34,287 nt of DNA from Tissierellia bacterium (GTDB lineage Bacteria > Bacillota > Clostridia > Tissierellales > Tepidimicrobiaceae): NCBI GenBank assembly GCA_012518955.1, contig JAAYRD010000041.1:1-34287 (forward strand). Direction: 5' to 3'. Positions 4,036 to 34,287 of the stretch are shown here, in pieces; position 1 is the first letter of the stretch; each line of letters opens with the position of its first letter. The translations under genes were made by a program, and so were the position numbers. A model generated the notes under the pieces. The model ran no database searches. It was not told where the DNA came from and was given only the letters and a program-made list of their open reading frames with translations.

Positions 4036-5019
4036 GTGGTTAATATAGGTATTGCAGGTGCAACGGGTATGGTTGGTAGAACTTTTTTAAAGGTAATGGA
4101 AGAGAGAAATTTTCCAGTGAATGAACTTTACCTTTTTGCATCTTCTAAGTCTAAAGGAACAACAATTGAATTTAATAATAAAAAATATGTGGTTGAGGAA
4201 CTTAATGAAAGCTCATTTGATAAACCAATGGACATTGTTTTATTTTCGGCTGGTGGGGATTTAAGTAAAAAATATGCTCCCATAGCAAAAGAAAAAGGTA
4301 TTGTAGTAGTAGATAACAGTAGTGCTTGGCGGATGGAAGATTGGGTACCATTGATAGTACCAGAAGTAAATGGTGATTCAATTTCTAAAAACAAAGGAAT
4401 TATTGCTAATCCCAATTGCTCTACTATTCAATCGGTAATACCATTGAAACCTTTAAATGACAGATATAAATTAAAGCGAGTTGTTTTTTCAACCTATCAA
4501 GCTGTATCAGGTTCAGGAGTTGCAGGATTAGAAGATTTAGAAAAAGGACTATCTTCTACTTATAATAATATATATCCTCACCCTATAGCATATAATGTAT
4601 TACCTCATATAGATAGTTTTCTAGATAATGGGTATACAAAAGAAGAGATGAAAATGATAGATGAGACTAAAAAAATACTGAATGATCAGGATATACAAAT
4701 AACTGCTACTACTGTTAGAGTTCCAGTAAAATATGGTCATGCCGTATCTGCTAATATAGAGCTTGAAAAAGAATTTGAACTAGATGATATATTTACACTC
4801 TTAAAAAATACCGATGGAATAGAGGTATTAGATGACCTAGATAATAATATATATCCTATGCCTATTCTTGCCGAAGGAAAAGATAAAGTATACGTAGGCA
4901 GAATAAGACGAGATTTCAGTATAAAGAATGGATTAAATATTTGGATTGTAGCAGATAATAGCCGTAAAGGTGCAGCTACTAATACAGTCCAAATAGCAGA
5001 ACTATTACTTAATAAATAG
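4036..5019 (+). CDS. asd: Aspartate-semialdehyde dehydrogenase
   Basis: Converts aspartyl phosphate to aspartate semialdehyde with NADPH, feeding lysine, threonine and diaminopimelate synthesis. The N-terminal NADP-binding motif is GIAGATGMVGRTF. The catalytic cysteine is in NPNCSTIQ (about residue 128) and the acid/base histidine in KYGHAVSANIE. I place the start at the GTG at 4036: AGGAGGTG at 4019-4026 lies 9 nt upstream, and the protein then begins MVNIGIAGATG. An in-frame GTG at 4024 lies inside that ribosome binding site. First gene of asd-dapA-dapB. No lysine (L-box) riboswitch is visible in the short leader. Confidence 0.95.
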   Translation: MVNIGIAGATGMVGRTFLKVMEERNFPVNELYLFASSKSKGTTIEFNNKKYVVEELNESSFDKPMDIVLFSAGGDLSKKYAPIAKEKGIVVVDNSSAWRMEDWVPLIVPEVNGDSISKNKGIIANPNCSTIQSVIPLKPLNDRYKLKRVVFSTYQAVSGSGVAGLEDLEKGLSSTYNNIYPHPIAYNVLPHIDSFLDNGYTKEEMKMIDETKKILNDQDIQITATTVRVPVKYGHAVSANIELEKEFELDDIFTLLKNTDGIEVLDDLDNNIYPMPILAEGKDKVYVGRIRRDFSIKNGLNIWIVADNSRKGAATNTVQIAELLLNK

Positions 5020-5031
5020 GAGGTATAAATT

Positions 5032-5916
5032 ATGTTTAAAGGTTCTGGAGTTGCAATAGTAACACCTTTTAGAGATGATCAAATTGATTTCCAAAAACTA
5101 GAGGAATTACTTGAATGGCATGTTGAAGAAGGTACTGATGCTATAATCATCTGTGGAACCACAGGTGAAGCTTCTACTATGTCCCTTGAGGAACAACAAC
5201 AAGCTATAAAATTTACAGTGGAAAAAATAAATAACAGAATCCCTGTTATAGCTGGAACAGGTAGCAATAACACTAAAAGCTCTATAGAATTAAGCAAATA
5301 CTCTGAGGAAGTCGGTGTAGATGGCTTATTGATCGTAACCCCTTATTACAATAAAACTACTCAGGCAGGTCTGATCAAACATTATACAACTATCGCCGAC
5401 AATGTTAGTATTCCAATTATAATATACAATGTTCCAGGAAGAACTGGGCTAAATATACTTCCAAGTACCATAGCTGAACTATCCAAGCATCCTAATATTA
5501 GAGGTGTCAAGGAAGCAAGTGGTGATATTGCTCAAGTTGCAGAGATAGCTAGATTATGTCCTGAAGACTTCTATATATATTCAGGGAATGACGATATGAT
5601 AGTTCCTCTATTAGCTTTAGGTGGAGTTGGGGTTATATCCGTTGTTGCAAATATACTTCCACAGGATACCCATAATATGGTCCAATACTTCTTGGATGGA
5701 GATATAAAAGCGTCTAAAGAACTTCAACTAAAGATGAAGCCATTAATCGATGCATTATTTATCGAAGTAAACCCAATCCCAGTAAGAGAAGCTATGAATA
5801 TATTAGGTATGGAAGTAGGTCCATGTAGATTACCTCTTGTTCCTATGGGAGAAACAAATAAGAATAAATTAATCGAAGAGATGTCCCTATATGGAATGAA
5901 TATAGGAGGTAAATAA
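5032..5916 (+). CDS. dapA: 4-hydroxy-tetrahydrodipicolinate synthase
   Basis: Condenses pyruvate with aspartate semialdehyde, the first committed step to lysine, diaminopimelate and (in spore formers) dipicolinate. The 294 residues match the family length. Seen are the [11 protein letters not shown] loop (41-51), the tyrosine in IYNVPGRTG, and the Schiff-base lysine in GVKEASGD (Lys160). AGGAGG lies 7 nt before the ATG. The gene follows asd by 12 nt and precedes dapB by 2 nt, so all three are one operon. Confidence 0.96.
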
Positions 5917-12732: not shown

Positions 12733-14028
12733 CTAATAATTCTTTAATAATATTTTCCTAACATCTCCTATTAGGTACAGGGAGCCTCCAAAGACTATCA
12801 AGTCTTCTTTGTCTGCTAATTGATATGTTTTAGCAATTGCTTCACCTATATTTTTTTCTATATAGGTCTTTTTGTTATATTTCCTTAGTTCTTTTTCTAA
12901 TAATTCTGCCTCCATCTTTCTAGGTATATTTACTTCCGTGATAACAATCTCATCTGCTAATGGTATTATTGTTTCTGCTATATGCTCTACATCCTTATCC
13001 TTAAGTATTCCAATTCCAAGTATCAATCTATTGTATTTAAACCTCTTCAAACTATCCACTAGCGTTTGTGCCCCTTGAAGGTTATGGGCCCCATCTATTA
13101 GAAATGTGGGATTTCTTTTTAGAATTTCCAGCCTACCCTTCCATTTAGTCTTTTGTAGTCCATTTCTAATATGCTCAGTCCCTATATCTATCAAACCTCT
13201 ATCTTTAAGTGTCAATATAGTCATCAAGGCCAGAGACGCATTATATATCTGATGTTTTCCAATTAATGTAACTTTTAAATTTTCATATATGGAATCTTTA
13301 TATTTAAAATCAAATACTCCACCATATTCTCCCAAATCTTTAATGTTGACATTTTCTATCGAGTATTCTACTAGATCTGCAGTTTTTTCCAAGCATACTC
13401 GTTTTATAATTTTACTCGCTTCTTTTTGTTGAGGATAGGATATAACAAGACCCCCATCCTTTATTATACCAGCCTTTTCATAAGCAATCTTTCCTAATGT
13501 ATCTCCCAAAACATCAACATGATCGTAATCTATAGTAGTTATAACAGAAGCTATAGAGTTCTCTATAATGTTTGTAGAATCTGCCCTCCCACCTAATCCT
13601 ACTTCTAATACAACGTAATCTAATTGTTCCTCTTTAAAATATACAAAAGCTATAGCCGTAACTATCTCAAAAGTTGTAGGATGCTCATATCCTTCATCTA
13701 TCATAATCTCTATTTTTTCCTTAATCTTACTCGTTATTTCCGCCAGTCTATCGTCGGGAATATCTTTCCCATTGATGGATATTCTCTCATTAAATCTTTC
13801 CAAATATGGTGAAATAAATAATCCTACCCTATATCCTGCTTCTTTCAGTGTAGTAGCTAAATAAGAAGAAGTAGATCCCTTTCCATTAGTTCCAGCAACA
13901 TGGATATATTTCATATCCAAATGAGGATTCCCGAGTAGTTCTAATAATTTGCCCATTACTTCTAATCCTAATCTTGAACCAAACTTATCTTTATCATTTA
14001 TATAGTTTAAAGCCTCTACATAGTTCAA
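12733..14028 (-). CDS. folC: Folylpolyglutamate synthase / dihydrofolate synthase
   Basis: A Mur-ligase-superfamily enzyme of 431 residues, the family length, that adds glutamate to folates and in many bacteria also makes dihydrofolate from dihydropteroate. The P-loop is HVAGTNGKGSTSSYL (43-57). The central block has TTIDYDHVDVLGDTLGKIAYEKAGIIK, the FolC signature with the metal-binding His. LIDGAHNLQGA marks the C-terminal domain. A TTG start at 14028 has GAGGGG 5-6 nt upstream. It follows valS by 79 nt on the same strand, a common Firmicute pairing, and probably shares the Val T-box transcript. Confidence 0.95.
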   Translation of the reverse strand: MNYVEALNYINDKDKFGSRLGLEVMGKLLELLGNPHLDMKYIHVAGTNGKGSTSSYLATTLKEAGYRVGLFISPYLERFNERISINGKDIPDDRLAEITSKIKEKIEIMIDEGYEHPTTFEIVTAIAFVYFKEEQLDYVVLEVGLGGRADSTNIIENSIASVITTIDYDHVDVLGDTLGKIAYEKAGIIKDGGLVISYPQQKEASKIIKRVCLEKTADLVEYSIENVNIKDLGEYGGVFDFKYKDSIYENLKVTLIGKHQIYNASLALMTILTLKDRGLIDIGTEHIRNGLQKTKWKGRLEILKRNPTFLIDGAHNLQGAQTLVDSLKRFKYNRLILGIGILKDKDVEHIAETIIPLADEIVITEVNIPRKMEAELLEKELRKYNKKTYIEKNIGEAIAKTYQLADKEDLIVFGGSLYLIGDVRKILLKNY

Positions 14029-14077
14029 ATTATCCCCTCATTTCTCATTTCGCTTATATTGTAGATTATAATGGCTT

Positions 14078-14102
14078 AATAGGGTGGTATATCCACCCTA
14101 TT
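14078..14102 (-). repeat. Hairpin between valS and folC
   Basis: AATAGGGTGG and CCACCCTATT form a 10-bp stem with a TATAT loop. On the minus strand no T-run follows (AAGCCATTATAA), so it is more likely a processing or attenuation hairpin than a full terminator. Confidence 0.55.
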
Positions 14103-14107
14103 ATTCT

Positions 14108-21966: not shown

Positions 21967-22893
21967 CTAATCCCTAAATAGAAAATCAAATATCTTTTCA
22001 ACAACTTCCTTATAGAAAGATTCATTAGTTATTTCATAAGCTTTGATATAGGTAATAGCAAGCAATGCATTGTCATATAACATCTTTTCAAAGTGAGGAA
22101 CCAACCACTTCTCATCTACTGAATATCGATAAAAGCCAAAGCCTACATGATCAAAAATACCACCTTTATACATGTTTTTCAATGTAGTTTTAGCTATATC
22201 TAGTGATCTTTCATCGTTATTTTGTTCTCCATATTCTAATAGAAATAATGTATGCTGGGGTAAAGGAAACTTAGGTCTATGGCCAAAACCTCCATTTACT
22301 TCATCAAACATATCAATTAATTCTTCTTTTGTTTTTTCTAATATCTCAATACTTATATCACCTTTAGTATGGAAGTTATATCTATTCTCCACCTCATGTA
22401 AAATATACTCACTTTCTTTTATTATATTTTTACTGTCCTTTTCCCAGAGCTTATTAACTTTGCTCAATAAATCTATTAAACCGGTCATTCTACCCCTGGT
22501 CCTTTTAGGAAAATATGTTCCTGCAAAAAATGGTTTTTTTTCAGGAGTCAACAACAAATTTAAAGGCCATCCTGCTGATCCTGTCATGGCCTCGGCAAAG
22601 ATCATATATACCTTATCTATATCTGGCCTTTCTTCTCTATCTACTTTAATAGGCACATAATACCTATTCAATATCTCTGCTACTTCCCTATCTTGGAATG
22701 ATTCCCTATTCATATTATGGCACCATCTACAAGTAGAATATCCTATGGATAAAAATATAGGTTTGTTTTCTTCTTTCGCCTTATTAAATGCTTCAGATCC
22801 CCAGGGATACCAGTCTATTGGATTATGGGCATGTTGAAGCAAGTAAGGGGATTTTTGATATATCAATTTATTTGTGGTATTAATATTAACCAT
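21967..22893 (-). pseudogene. Truncated YyaL-like thioredoxin-domain protein (DUF255/SSP411)
   Basis: The 308 residues cover the N-terminal half of the YyaL/SSP411 family. They begin [24 protein letters not shown] and have the thioredoxin-like [16 protein letters not shown] (usual CHWCHVM). The start of the alpha/alpha toroid follows ([31 protein letters not shown]). The family is usually near 650-700 residues; here the frame ends at IFDFLFRD and the rest of the toroid is missing. The DNA downstream is AT-rich and passes directly into the cysK promoter. So the 3' half has been deleted. The N-terminal part keeps a good frame, so it may be recent or still expressed. Function of the family is unsettled. 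Confidence 0.8.
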
Positions 22894-27380: not shown

Positions 27381-27998
27381 TTAGTTAAGGGATTTAATTA
27401 CCATTTTATAAGATAAATCCATGGCTCTTTCCATATCTATTTCTGGATATCGTTCTTTCATATTTACATAATCGGTAAAACCAGATAGGGAACTTTTTAT
27501 TACCATTCTTTTATAATATTGATCTTCGTTTACAGTTATTTTTCCTTCTTTAAACCCTATGTCCAATAAATTGTCGATCTCTTTCTCTACCCTCGAGATA
27601 TATAAAGGTATACTATATTGTTCATCTATCAAATATTCATAGAACTCTTCAAATCCACCTGCTGATAAGAGCATATTCATTGTAAAAAACTTGTTTTCCA
27701 AGTTTTCTGCAATTATATTTAACATCTCATAATATTTATCTTTGAATCCATGTTTTGAGGTTACTCTATCTATAGCATACTCTATTTCATTATTTATACT
27801 GTAGAGGATTGCTTTTGAAATAGCTTCCTCCTTTGTCTTAAAATAATCATATATTGTACCTTTGCCAATATCAGCTGCCTTAGCAATTTCTGACACAGTA
27901 ATAGAATAAAGATTAGCGCCATCTTTTATTAAATTTATTAAACCATTAAATATTGCCAGCTCTTTCTCAGAATATTTAATATTATCCATACTATTCAT
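27381..27998 (-). CDS. TetR/AcrR-family regulator of the RND exporter
   Basis: A 205-residue protein with an N-terminal TetR helix-turn-helix: ITVSEIAKAADIGKGTIYDY, then FKTKEEAISKAI (about residues 34-66). A helical ligand-binding domain follows with no recognisable signature. Its start overlaps the end of the exporter gene by 8 nt, so both are in one message. The 16-bp palindrome CCGACTG-GT-CAGTCGG at the exporter promoter is its likely operator (inference). The inducer is unknown. Confidence 0.9.
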   Translation of the reverse strand: MNSMDNIKYSEKELAIFNGLINLIKDGANLYSITVSEIAKAADIGKGTIYDYFKTKEEAISKAILYSINNEIEYAIDRVTSKHGFKDKYYEMLNIIAENLENKFFTMNMLLSAGGFEEFYEYLIDEQYSIPLYISRVEKEIDNLLDIGFKEGKITVNEDQYYKRMVIKSSLSGFTDYVNMKERYPEIDMERAMDLSYKMVIKSLN

Positions 27999-30900
27999 CC
28001 CCTTTATCTGAGGTTTTACCTAGCTTGTTTCTATGCAATATATCATACATTACAGGAACAAATATTAATGTTAATATAGTGGCATAGGTTAGCCCGCCTA
28101 TGGACGCTATTGCAAGAGGTTGCAACATCTCTGCTCCCATTCCTACTCCAAATGAAAGAGTAGATAGGCCAAGGATAGTGGTTATTGCTGTCATTAGAAT
28201 AGGCCTCATCCTTGTTTTTCCTGCCAGTATTAAGGACTCCGTTTTCTCCATGCCCGATTCTCTTAATTGATTAGTATAGTCCACAAATACTATTCCATTG
28301 TTTACAACAACTCCACTTAATACAAGAAACCCAAGCATGGATATTATGCTTAAATCGTATCCTGTAATTGCTAAGGCTAAAAATCCTCCGGTAAAAGCAA
28401 GGGGTATGGTAAACATTACGATAAATGGTGATAATAGGGATTGAAACTGTGCTACCATTATTAAGTAGATAAATGCTATGGCTAAAATCAGCATATAGAA
28501 TAGATCTTTCAAAGATTCATTAATCATTTCAGTTTCTCCCGAAATTTCAATTTTATATCCATCTGGTACCTTATAATCTTTTAATTTCTTTTCAAATTCT
28601 CGACTTACAAGACCTATGTTGTAATCATCATCAATATTAGCCGTAATTGATATATATCTCTCTTGGGAATCTCTTTTAATTGAAGAAAGTCCATGTTCTT
28701 GACTTACCTCTGCAATATCCATTAATTTGACAGAAGTCTCTTCTCCGTCTTTATCCAGCTCAATAGTTAAGTTTTCTAAATCACTTCTAGTCATGTTTTG
28801 ATTCTCTCCGTCTACTACAATAACCGGATAATCCTTATTGTTAACCGTAAGTGTAGTAGATGACTTTCCTTTAGATACTAGTGTATTTATATTTGAAAAT
28901 ACTTGTGCAACAGTCAAACCTTCCTCCATTGCTTTTTCTTTATCTACTACAACTCTTATCTCCATTACATTTTCATCTAATCCATCGGAGACCTCTGCAG
29001 TTCCTTCAGTTTCCTCAAGAATCTTTGCTACATCTCCCGAGATTTCACGCAGTTTATCAACTTCTCTACCTTTGACTATAGCCTCTATTCCTGTTCCCGC
29101 CAAAGCAGACATATCCATTGTGGATGTGTTAACATTTATAGTGCAATCAAGATCTTCCGTTAATTTTTTAATTTGTTTTCCAATTTCAGTATTACTAGAT
29201 ACCTTGTTTTCATCTAGGATTACATATATTGACATGGAATTATTATTTCCATTGTCTCCCATTCCTCCCATGGACTCCGCTCGAAAGGCACCTAAAGTTT
29301 CTATGCCATCTATATCGATTATCCTATCTACTACGGTATCCGTCATTAATTTGATATCTTCTGATGTGCTTTCTTTCGGTAATTCTATAGTAATAGACAT
29401 CTGTGGACTTTCCATTTCTGGTATAAATGATGTTCCCATTCTGATTCCTAAGAAACCACTTACTACAAGTAAAGCTATAACCCCTATTATTACTAGTCCT
29501 TTATGTTTCAATGACCATCTTAGTATTATCTCATATCGATTTACAAATCTATCAAATAGATTGTGTGATTTTTCTTTTGTATCCTTCAATATACTTGATG
29601 CCAAAGTAGGCACTAATGTAAGTGCAACTAATAGGCTTGCAAATAAGGAATATGCAATGGTTAATCCCATATCAGTAAATAGTTGTCTTGATATACCTTT
29701 TGTAAATACTATAGGTAGAAACACTACAGCAGTTGTCAATGTAGATGCCAAAAGTGCACCTGAAATCTCCCTTGCTCCTTCAATAGAAGCCTTTGTTGCT
29801 GACACACCTTTATTTCTTAGCCTATATATATTCTCGATAACTACTATTGAGTTATCGACTAACATTCCAACTCCCAAAGCCAATCCTGCTAATGAAATAA
29901 TATTTATGGTAACTCCTGTAAAATACATCATCGCTATAGCAAATATAATACTTATAGGTATGGATAATGCTATGATGAATGTTGGTCTTATATCCCTTAA
30001 AAACAATATTAATATTAATATTGCCAGAATTCCTCCATAAAGTAAATTTTTTAGAACCGAATCCACCACTATATCTATATAGATTCCTTGATCCATTAAA
30101 GGTGTTATGCTTATATCTTTATTATCTTTTGTAATCTCATCTATTTTTTCCCTAATACTATTAGATACTTCCGCCGTTGAATAATTACTCTGTTTTTGAA
30201 ATGTTAAAACAGCAGCGTCATTGCCATTAACTTTTGCATATATATTATCAGAGTTATCTATATTTTTTATATCTGCAACATCTGATAAGTATACCTTATC
30301 AACACCTTCTACACCTGTATCAAATAATAATAAGTTTTTTAACTCCTCTATGTCTTGAATCTTATCTCCAACTTTAACTAAATAATCGGTGTTATTTTCC
30401 GAAACATAGCCTGCTGGCATGGAAAAGTTTTGTGCTGATAATATGCCTGAAATCATCTCCTCAGTAACAACCCCATCCAAAGATGCATTCTTAAAGGCTT
30501 CCTCTTTGGCTGATTCCAGTTCAGACATTTTTTGATTTAATGTTGCCTCTCCAGATTGTAGTTGAGCTTTAGCCTTGTTCATCTCAGTTTTTAAAACTGC
30601 TTTCCCTTCTTTGATCTGTTCTTCTTGTTTGTTTAACTCTGTTTTTTGCGCCTCTATACCAGATTTTTGTTTTTCAAGTTCAGAGATTTTGTTAGTTATC
30701 GTATCCAAACCTGCATTTATTTCAATTTTATTCTGTGCAATAGTTTTTAAGCCTAGTTTGACTTTTTCTAATTCCTTTCTCTGCTCTTCAGATATATTTC
30801 CACCTAAGCTCTCAAGCTGTTTTTTAGCATTTAATAATTGTTCTTCTTCCCTATTTAAAACATTCATTGAAGTCTGTAATTCTTCCCTATTCTTTAATAA

Positions 30901-31698
30901 CTCTTCCTCACCTGATTTTATTGTCGATTCTACTGATGAAATTTGCTCTTTGCCCATGGCAATAGCTTTTTCACCTTCTGCCAATTTGGAACTCTGTTTT
31001 TTGTTTTCTGAATCCAATTTAGCTTTTCCAGTATCTATTTCCCTCTTTGCTTCTAATAACTTGTTCTCTGCCTTAGAAAGTTCTGAATCTATAGATGCTA
31101 AAATTTTTTGATTTAGCTTTTCTATTTTCTCTGGACTAATTATTACCTCTATGCTCTCCTCAATCAACCCAACCCCCTCTACAGATGCAACTCCACCTAT
31201 ACTTTCAAATTCTGGTATTATATTTTCACTTACCAACTTTGTAATCCCAGCTGCATCCATATCTTCTACATCAATAGACGCCACCATAATAGGTAACATA
31301 TCAGGATTTAACTTCATTATCATAGGTGTACCTATATCATCATTCCAATTCGGTTTGATTAGGTCCAAACTTCCATTTATCTCAATTATAGCCGAATCCA
31401 TATTTACATCATTATTAAATTCAAGTATTACAGTAGATGAATTCTCTCTAGAGATAGAACTCACATTTTCAATATTACTTGTAGTGGCCAACAACTGTTC
31501 AATTGGTTTAGTCACAACCATCTCTACCTCTTCAGGACTTGCACCTGGATAGGATGTCATAACCACAACATATGGTAAATCTATACTTGGTAACAGATCA
31601 GTCTTCAAATTCATAAATGAAACGGTACCTAATATAAGTACTAAAATTACTGCAACAATAATTGTAAAAGGTTTTTTCACACTAAATTTCGATAACAT
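27991..31698 (-). CDS. RND-family efflux permease with a long coiled-coil insertion
   Basis: A 1235-residue proton-driven exporter. RND landmarks: TM1 with DLLPSIDLPYVVV, YPGASPEEVE, and TM2 from about 552. TM4 is LGVGMLVDNSIVVIENIYRL (one acidic proton-relay Asp where many have two). A late helix contains GVVVNNGIVFVDYTNQLRE. It ends in a 12-TM layout. Typical members have about 1020-1060 residues. The extra length is a 200-residue segment (about 195-405) rich in Glu, Lys, Gln and heptads, with a turn near GGNISEEQ (299-306), inserted in the first extracytoplasmic domain just before QNFSMPAGYV. No membrane-fusion gene adjoins, as expected without an outer membrane. GGGGG precedes the ATG at 31698. 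Confidence 0.92.
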   Translation of the reverse strand: MLSKFSVKKPFTIIVAVILVLILGTVSFMNLKTDLLPSIDLPYVVVMTSYPGASPEEVEMVVTKPIEQLLATTSNIENVSSISRENSSTVILEFNNDVNMDSAIIEINGSLDLIKPNWNDDIGTPMIMKLNPDMLPIMVASIDVEDMDAAGITKLVSENIIPEFESIGGVASVEGVGLIEESIEVIISPEKIEKLNQKILASIDSELSKAENKLLEAKREIDTGKAKLDSENKKQSSKLAEGEKAIAMGKEQISSVESTIKSGEEELLKNREELQTSMNVLNREEEQLLNAKKQLESLGGNISEEQRKELEKVKLGLKTIAQNKIEINAGLDTITNKISELEKQKSGIEAQKTELNKQEEQIKEGKAVLKTEMNKAKAQLQSGEATLNQKMSELESAKEEAFKNASLDGVVTEEMISGILSAQNFSMPAGYVSENNTDYLVKVGDKIQDIEELKNLLLFDTGVEGVDKVYLSDVADIKNIDNSDNIYAKVNGNDAAVLTFQKQSNYSTAEVSNSIREKIDEITKDNKDISITPLMDQGIYIDIVVDSVLKNLLYGGILAILILILFLRDIRPTFIIALSIPISIIFAIAMMYFTGVTINIISLAGLALGVGMLVDNSIVVIENIYRLRNKGVSATKASIEGAREISGALLASTLTTAVVFLPIVFTKGISRQLFTDMGLTIAYSLFASLLVALTLVPTLASSILKDTKEKSHNLFDRFVNRYEIILRWSLKHKGLVIIGVIALLVVSGFLGIRMGTSFIPEMESPQMSITIELPKESTSEDIKLMTDTVVDRIIDIDGIETLGAFRAESMGGMGDNGNNNSMSIYVILDENKVSSNTEIGKQIKKLTEDLDCTINVNTSTMDMSALAGTGIEAIVKGREVDKLREISGDVAKILEETEGTAEVSDGLDENVMEIRVVVDKEKAMEEGLTVAQVFSNINTLVSKGKSSTTLTVNNKDYPVIVVDGENQNMTRSDLENLTIELDKDGEETSVKLMDIAEVSQEHGLSSIKRDSQERYISITANIDDDYNIGLVSREFEKKLKDYKVPDGYKIEISGETEMINESLKDLFYMLILAIAFIYLIMVAQFQSLLSPFIVMFTIPLAFTGGFLALAITGYDLSIISMLGFLVLSGVVVNNGIVFVDYTNQLRESGMEKTESLILAGKTRMRPILMTAITTILGLSTLSFGVGMGAEMLQPLAIASIGGLTYATILTLIFVPVMYDILHRNKLGKTSDKGDE

Positions 31699-31875: not shown

Positions 31876-32595
31876 TTATTTAAATATATGTTCACTTATA
31901 CATAGTAGCACCTGGGAAGGTAGATAGAATAGCCATATAGATATGGAAGATATATTATGCAATAGGTTTATATATTTACCCGCAGGTTCCATATATCCTA
32001 TTATATTGAAGAATCCTACATTTATATCACAGAATAAGAAAAATATCATACCTAAAGCTATCATCTGCCTATTTGGGCTAGGATACAACTTGTCTGTGCA
32101 CACCCTAATACCTCTTATAGTACTAGTTAGCAAACATATGATGTAGTAAATACTGATTACAAATATAAAATCAACTTCCATAGTAATATAGATAATGATT
32201 AATATTAAAAATATTGTTATAAAATTTATTATGGTTGCTTTAGTCCTATGAGAATCATATCTAATGGAATACAATATTTGAATTATACAAAATAAGGCTA
32301 TCCCTAATATATATTTTCTATTTAACACTAGTAAAAACAAATCTGCAAAAATGGTAAGAAATAGCCCTAATTGTAATAGAAATATACCTTTAGCGTTAAT
32401 AGCATATTCTTCTAACAAAAGAGAGATAATGAATGTAAGTATTATACTTATGAATTTAATTATATCCGTTGGGATAAATATTTGTATATTAAAAATATCC
32501 ATATATAAAAAAATAAGATATAGTATCCCTATAAACATTAGCAAAGTTTTTACTATTTTTAGTTTATAATTTTTAATTTGCATCCCTATCACCAT
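31876..32595 (-). CDS. Polytopic membrane protein, possibly YhhN/TMEM86-like
   Basis: A 239-residue protein with about seven or eight hydrophobic helices. LGLFLTIFADLFLLVLNRKY, then GIALFCIIQILYSIRY and ALGMIFFLFCDINVGFFNI, recall the YhhN (lysoplasmalogenase) pattern, with one Asp in each of two helices. The match is loose and the family is a guess. Neither start candidate (ATG 32595, or 32583 giving MQIKNYKL) has a strong ribosome binding site. It lies upstream of the RND operon on the same strand but is separated from it by a promoter and operator. Confidence 0.6.
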   Translation of the reverse strand: MVIGMQIKNYKLKIVKTLLMFIGILYLIFLYMDIFNIQIFIPTDIIKFISIILTFIISLLLEEYAINAKGIFLLQLGLFLTIFADLFLLVLNRKYILGIALFCIIQILYSIRYDSHRTKATIINFITIFLILIIIYITMEVDFIFVISIYYIICLLTSTIRGIRVCTDKLYPSPNRQMIALGMIFFLFCDINVGFFNIIGYMEPAGKYINLLHNISSISIWLFYLPSQVLLCISEHIFK

Positions 32596-33062: not shown

Positions 33063-33866
33063 ATGTATGAAATATTCAAATATGAAGATATAGATAAAAA
33101 TAAAATAGATGGATCCTATGTTTTTATTGATGTTAGGAGCCCTGGCGAATATAGGTCAGAAACTATTCCAGATGCTATCAATATTCCCATCTTTGATGAT
33201 AAGGAAAGAAGTTTAATTGGAACAACATATATTCAAGATAGTGTAGAAAAGGCTAAAAAATTAGGAATAGAAGCTGCTGCAAATAAGCTTCCTAGTATCT
33301 ATAATCAAGTAGCAACCTTAGATAAGGAATACGATAACCTTATCTTTTTCTGTGCCAGAGGTGGCTTTAGAAGTAGTTCTCTAGTTTCTCTTTTTAAGAC
33401 CTTGGGAATCAATACATATAAACTTGATGGCGGGTACAAAAAATATAGAAAATACATCAACAGAACTCTTCCAGAAATAATCAAAGGAGTCCGATTTGTA
33501 GTTCTTTATGGAAATACTGGAACTGGGAAAACCCATATTTTAGAGTCCATAAAAAAAGAGGGTATGGATATTGTGGATCTAGAGGGCTGTGCAAATCATA
33601 GAGGTTCTCTTCTTGGGAGTGTAGGTCTTGGTGAACAAAATACGCAGAAGATGTTTGAAAGTATGTTATATGAATCTTTAAAAAATCGTAAAACCAATAT
33701 TGTATATATAGAAGGCGAGAGTAAAAGAATAGGAAAAGTTATAATTCCTAATTATATATATAATGCTATGAATAATGGAATAAGGATAAAAATAGAGGCT
33801 AGCCTTGAAACTAGAAAAGTATCTTATTACTTTCTATGGAATTTTAATAATATTGAAAGGATTTAA
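33063..33866 (+). pseudogene. mnmH: tRNA 2-selenouridine synthase, 3' end lost and fused to foreign sequence
   Basis: MnmH (YbbB/SelU) swaps sulfur for selenium at the wobble uridine of some tRNAs, using selenophosphate. Residues 1-130 are a rhodanese domain (FIDVRSPGEYRSETIPDAIN, catalytic CARGGFRS). The P-loop is LYGNTGTGKTHI (about 162-173), then DLEGCANHRGSLLG. The frame follows the family up to GIRIKIEASLETR (about residue 250), then changes to KVSYYFLWNFNNIERI and stops. The usual last 70-90 residues are missing. AAAGGTGAG lies 4 nt before the ATG at 33063; an upstream ATG at 33009 is in frame but has no binding site. Probably inactive. Confidence 0.85.
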
Positions 33867-34062
33867 TTTAAAAAGAAAGCACCTTATAGTTTTAACCTAT
33901 ATCATTAGTGCTTTAATATATATTACTGCATACTTTGTCTCAAAAAATCTTTTTATCCTTTTTAGGTTTTTAAATTATTATGCATATATATGTCTAATAA
34001 ACTTTGTTATAATTCCCTTTATAGTTTTCACTATATTTTTGGTTAAATTAAATCACAATTGA
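33814..34062 (+). pseudogene. C-terminal remnant of a probable spore germination permease (GerAB/YndE-like)
   Basis: In the +1 frame relative to mnmH the sequence runs from about EKYLITFYGILIILKGFNLK through KRKHLIVLTYIISALIYITA to FRFLNYYAYICLINFVIIPF and a stop at 34060-34062. Two or three membrane helices ending in a short charged tail (KLNHN) match the C-terminus of endospore germination permeases, as I recall them. The N-terminal two thirds are absent; upstream is mnmH in another frame. A deletion has therefore joined the two genes. An ATG at 33805 opens the frame but has no ribosome binding site. Confidence 0.55.
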
Positions 34063-34072
34063 CATAATATAA

Positions 34073-34108
34073 GAATACAAGGGAACATCTACTCGTCCCC
34101 TTGTATTC
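34073..34108. terminator. Terminator shared by the convergent ends near the window edge
   Basis: GAATACAAGGG (34073-34083) and CCCTTGTATTC (34098-34108) form an 11-bp stem. The plus side is followed by CTAATTTTC and the minus side by TTATATTATG. It lies between the germination-permease remnant (plus) and the ABC permease (minus). Confidence 0.75.
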
Positions 34109-34287
34109 CTAATTTTCTTGCTTCATACTTTCTACTATTATCTTATCATTGATCCTTCTTAAAGGATATGCTCCTGATAATAAAGCTATAATTGTGGCTC
34201 CTATACATGCTATGCCTATATTCTTCCAAGGTATGATCCATTCAAATGGTCTAAAATCAAATACTATCTTAAACATAATATAGGTTA
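34109..34287 (-). CDS. C-terminus of an FtsX-like ABC transporter permease (partial)
   Basis: The minus strand is open from the window edge to a TAG at 34111-34109, about 59 codons. It contains FKIVFDFRPFEWIIPWKNIG, then IACIGATIIALLSGAYPLRR and INDKIIVESMKQEN. A last hydrophobic helix followed by a LRR-type basic stretch and ...I.ESM at the end is the usual finish of FtsX/MacB-type permeases (compare P.RRA....P.EAL). The rest of the gene lies outside the window. Its stop codon is next to the shared terminator hairpin. Confidence 0.65.
   Translation of the reverse strand, partial: TYIMFKIVFDFRPFEWIIPWKNIGIACIGATIIALLSGAYPLRRINDKIIVESMKQEN

Follow-up and report, generated by a model that had tools for sequence, protein, structure and literature searches.

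A probable recombination scar joins a truncated mnmH to the tail of a germination permease gene in a relative of Tepidimicrobium

Introduction

MnmH/SelU/YbbB is the tRNA 2-selenouridine synthase (TIGR03167, NF008750), in which selenation depends on C97 and geranylation on the Walker motif (PMC4830565), and binding of geranyl pyrophosphate or nucleotide has been placed in its P-loop domain (PMC4830565, PMC12177912). Independent loss of the selenouridine trait is already established (PMC1273633, PMC5029168), including differential loss with selenocysteine use retained (PMC1273633). The second gene concerned here encodes a permease of the GerAB/YndE family (TIGR00912, PF03845).

Here, we describe a locus in a relative of Tepidimicrobium at which parts of these two genes meet. 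The host shares with described MnmH proteins their first 251 residues, including C97 of the rhodanese domain and Walker A, whereas the last ~95-105 residues are gone and an out-of-frame gerAB tail stands in their place. With GerAB permeases it shares the last 79 residues, 75-80% identical to two family members (that of genome G013 has 372 aa), whereas the first 293 codons, the start and the partner genes are missing. As in the differential losses described in PMC1273633, mnmH is lost and selD and selA are kept, a combination found also in the 7 of 20 family genomes that lack mnmH; unlike in those losses, the broken gene is still visible and the scar can be read at base resolution. The finding is an ordinary gene-loss scar, real and well resolved, and not a new system. 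Within a lineage keeping selD and selA, a single loss of the selenouridine trait can here be traced to the base, in line with the published view that retention and loss of the two selenium traits are independent of each other. The locus also carries a warning for annotation, as 251 of ~350 residues are enough to pass the cut-offs curated for two MnmH models, so that automatic counting would score this host as selenouridine-positive in error. Its wider interest is limited, as it concerns one pseudogene only.

Results

The window, that is, the whole stretch of DNA analysed, is the entire contig C109 (34,287 nucleotides) of a draft genome of 1.9 Mb in 200 contigs, 97% complete. The junction is known from this one assembly, in which C109 ends 470 bases past it. 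We compared the locus with two sister genomes, G001 and G002 (80-82% complete), of which G002 belongs to the same genus as the host. The MnmH C-terminus, the permease and GerA were joined as a single query in one whole-genome search, and matches were separated by query position. Coordinates are collected in Table 1.

Table 1. Features of the mnmH locus and its neighbours in the window
Feature	Position	Strand	Description
RND efflux gene	27991..31698	-	order as in G001
YhhN-family gene, left neighbour of mnmH	31876..32595	-	order as in G001
mnmH fragment, codons 1-251	33063..33815	+	Cys97-bearing rhodanese domain, then the start of the P-loop domain including Walker A (GNTGTGKT); NF008750/TIGR03167, alignment; residues 1-251 80% identical to G002 MnmH by direct comparison
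Left junction mnmH / gerAB	33815..33817	.	at most ~3 bases of overlap; three-way comparison of G002 mnmH and G013/G018 gerAB
Out-of-family tail	33816..33866	+	16 residues and stop; no match to MnmH relatives past R251
gerAB 3' fragment, homologous to codons 294-372 of 372, own stop	33817..34062	+	+1 frame; 75-80% aa identity to G013 and G018
Probable right junction zone	34054..34069	.	gerAB homology stops at 34053; likeness to G002 mnmH end from ~34068
Terminator-like hairpin of 18 pairs between convergent genes	34070..34111	.	resembles hairpin at G002 mnmH end
FtsX-type ABC permease, 3' end	34109..34287	-	runs on into C55 across 127-base overlap, frame intact, 876 aa

An earlier note on this DNA had stated that mnmH follows its family as far as the residues SLETR and then becomes unrelated, and our comparison bears this out. 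The open reading frame (33063-33866) encodes 267 aa, of which only residues 16-252 match the MnmH equivalog models (NF008750, 302 bits against a cut-off of 241, model positions 13-248 of 346; TIGR03167, 276 bits against a cut-off of 220, model positions 4-237 of 311). The homology ends at the invariant R251 (AGA, 33813-33815), and beyond it come 16 residues (KVSYYFLWNFNNIERI) unmatched among MnmH relatives, nearly all of which have open frames of ~340-370 codons. In the retained part, the alignment places Cys97 in an invariant column of the rhodanese domain (PF00581, E 2e-12) and Walker A at residues 150-157. The P-loop domain is incomplete, its homology stopping at R251 against an expected end at about residue 338-356, and the lost part holds the invariant Y306 and Y307 and the nearly invariant Y259, L302, D308 and Y311. 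In a predicted structure of the full-length G002 protein (pLDDT 89, pTM 0.85), the cut falls inside helix 248-258 and removes from the P-loop domain the subsequent helices, strand 320-323 and the closing helix 327-344.

The earlier note had made the loss of the enzyme conditional on the absence of other copies. When the C-terminus of G002 MnmH was searched against the host genome, only its first 20 residues matched, at the fragment itself, apart from one chance-level match (E 0.37), and no second mnmH was found in the host assembly. Codons 1-251 contain no internal stops and are no more diverged than those of G002, with 191/251 residues identical to G004 here and 176/251 in G002. Differences fall at codon positions 3/1/2 in numbers of 106/44/19, the third position dominating as expected under constraint.

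The earlier note had further read a GerAB C-terminus in the +1 frame from near 33808-33818 up to a stop, and direct comparison agreed. Positions 33817-34053 match residues 294-372 of a 372-aa GerAB, with 80% aa identity in G018 and 75% in G013 (E ~1e-34 to 1e-35), and the stop lies at 34062. The TIGR00912 profile alone gives E 0.00096 for this tail (positions 278-354 of 357) and a Pfam search of it gave no match, the assignment coming from TIGR00912 and direct comparison; the G013 and G018 homologues themselves exceed the PF03845 cut-off. Differences at codon positions 3/1/2 (30/16/9 and 29/10/9) again show the third-position excess typical of constraint. The fragment belongs to a third type of GerAB, the host genome carrying two further complete gerAB genes, on C12 and C56. 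A search of the host genome with the full G013 GerAB returned only the tail and a weak match to another gerAB, the N-terminal part being absent. Neither gerA nor gerC was found beside the fragment. G013 and G018 carry a gerA of the third type, whereas the only GerA detected in the host genome is 32% identical to it.

Neither sister genome (80-82% complete) yielded this GerAB type, and the fragment may therefore never have belonged to a resident receptor. The proposal that a germination receptor had been lost thus holds only conditionally, given also the two other intact gerAB genes. A lateral origin of the piece is possible; in the comparison with G018 it shows 80% identity, whereas the tail of a different Ger permease compared between the same two genomes reaches 61%.

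Among the 249 genomes of the order, this third, divergent GerAB type was seen in only six, including the host fragment; in its cluster gerC and gerA are transcribed leftwards and gerAB rightwards. Examples are locus L035 of G018 (13019-14105), where the gerAB copy appears frameshifted, and L036 of G013 (4748-5863), where an IS3-like transposase adjoins the gene. A fused or frameshifted joint mnmH-gerAB product was considered and rejected, as the only start available to the gerAB tail is a chance TTG inside mnmH, and the tail lies in a different frame.

The two genes are cut at one point, as had been proposed. The junction is sharp, and a search of the rest of the assembly did not recover the missing parts. 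As the assembly is 97% complete, the absent parts of mnmH and gerAB could sit in the remaining 3%. On the left, the codon of R251 is followed by one base and then by K294 of gerAB (AAG, 33817-33819). The parental sequences, as seen in relatives, share at most a few bases at this position, without extended homology, and from these sequences the join looks illegitimate.

On the right, the end of gerAB homology, the stop codon and the G002-like hairpin place the junction probably within ~34054-34069, which makes the foreign piece ~245 bases long. The hairpin scores as terminator-like in the minus (permease) direction. Aligned to the G002 mnmH end, its region scores 33 against a shuffle mean of 16, a value reached by 1 of 2000 dinucleotide shuffles, other mnmH ends scoring at most 25; this likeness is suggestive only.

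The flanks are those of the relatives. In G001, the RND, YhhN and mnmH genes are ordered as in the host, up to the point within mnmH where the G001 contig stops. In G002, a convergent FtsX-type permease gene lies 33 bp past mnmH, and an ATPase, a kinase and a response regulator come next, a run that matches C55. We read the overlap between the end of C109 and the start of C55 as a graph branch. With these flanks and a permease that stays open across C109 and C55, the locus matches its relatives in gene order everywhere but at the mnmH tail.

Further to the left in the window, a YyaL/DUF255 thioredoxin-domain protein (21967-22893, minus strand; PF03190, E 2e-74) has just 308 aa. Members of this family have ~650-690 aa, and given this difference in length the gene may be a second 3'-truncated gene of the window; ~390 bases without a clear gene separate it from cysK.

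Discussion

Origin of the scar

It is very probable that the locus is a recombination scar in which a gerAB patch has replaced the tail of mnmH while the flanking genes stayed unchanged, leaving mnmH as a 3'-truncated pseudogene. The patch would consist of the last 79 codons and the stop of a third-type gerAB. Illegitimate recombination would be the most likely route, in either of two forms: a single patch event, by template switch or end joining capturing a gerAB fragment, or the insertion of a gerC-gerA-gerAB cluster at the mnmH end and then a deletion reaching from codon 251 of mnmH to codon 293 of gerAB. The event was probably recent, judging from the mostly third-position differences and from an mnmH fragment that has no stop and changes no faster than in G002.

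The earlier note had explained the junction as one deletion event. In this explanation, a special case of the route above, an ancestor ordered mnmH, gerC, gerA, gerAB, permease would have lost ~3.5-4 kb between the same two codons, which we regard as possible but doubtful. In every relative whose cluster was read, gerAB is the outermost gene and points away from the leftward gerC and gerA, so that the expected remnant of such a deletion is precisely this tail, on the mnmH strand, and the absence of the matching gerA from the host genome agrees with it. However, the permease directly adjoins mnmH in G002, and no intact ger cluster was found between mnmH and the permease in any genome examined, so that an earlier insertion in the host lineage would be required. 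A ger cluster does lie near mnmH in G018 (~7 kb) and in G243/G246 (~20 kb), but in the wrong orientation. Old linkage between mnmH and the ger cluster was not counted as evidence, since the orientations in G018 and G243/G246 cannot give the junction and G013 has the two on separate contigs. What stands of the single-event claim is the join. A lone deletion between old neighbours is insufficient unless a ger cluster was first inserted, since the permease is still in place, and though it is possible, the conserved flanks have simpler readings. Comparison with the sisters thus upheld the truncation and amended the deletion-only account: the conserved permease downstream identifies the scar as a gerAB patch at the position of the mnmH tail and not simply two joined neighbours.

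An assembly chimera, with mnmH and an unrelated gerAB end brought together by an artefact of reads or amplification, is improbable. A draft genome of 200 contigs with a contig end nearby invites such a suspicion, but two false joins within ~250 bases would be required, the left one without long shared sequence; moreover, the sequences on the two sides come from one syntenic locus and the gerAB DNA was not found in any other contig of the assembly.

Functional consequence

With the recombination scar as the preferred reading, the loss of the P-loop part that includes Y306-Y307, together with the published role of this domain, makes a loss of MnmH activity likely on the evidence of sequence and structural model. 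Very improbably, the truncated protein, with its rhodanese domain and part of the P-loop domain, could be a working product kept by selection. The uninterrupted codons 1-251 without excess divergence would suit this, as would archaeal MnmH domains that are made as separate proteins (PMC4830565), but the archaeal enzymes require both halves (PMC4830565), and here the cut interrupts a helix inside the P-loop domain instead of falling at a domain boundary, and takes invariant residues with it. Selection after tail loss for a minimal selenium- or geranyl-handling rhodanese protein is more improbable still.

Without a working MnmH, neither geranylation nor selenation of wobble 2-thiouridine would take place, and selenophosphate would still be made and used for selenocysteine. 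Indeed, selD, for which the earlier note had proposed a search, is intact in the host, as is selA, both on one contig, so that selenocysteine use probably remains and only the selenouridine branch is affected.

The selD gene carries one in-frame TGA in 20/20 family genomes (in the host at G000 C197:4604-5527), so that SelD is itself probably a selenoprotein.

Distribution of mnmH loss

Every one of the 20 family genomes has both selD and selA. Twelve of them, the host included, carry mnmH whole or for the most part, and one has a contig-end piece. Across the order mnmH was detected in 119/249 genomes (E 1e-20), and it is absent from 7/20 genomes of the family and roughly half of those of the order, which indicates that loss is common. 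Possibly broken copies were seen elsewhere in the order: G100 carries an in-frame TAG, and G034 holds two partial pieces (C2:420579-421127, residues 69-251; C8:65371-65706, residues 4-115).
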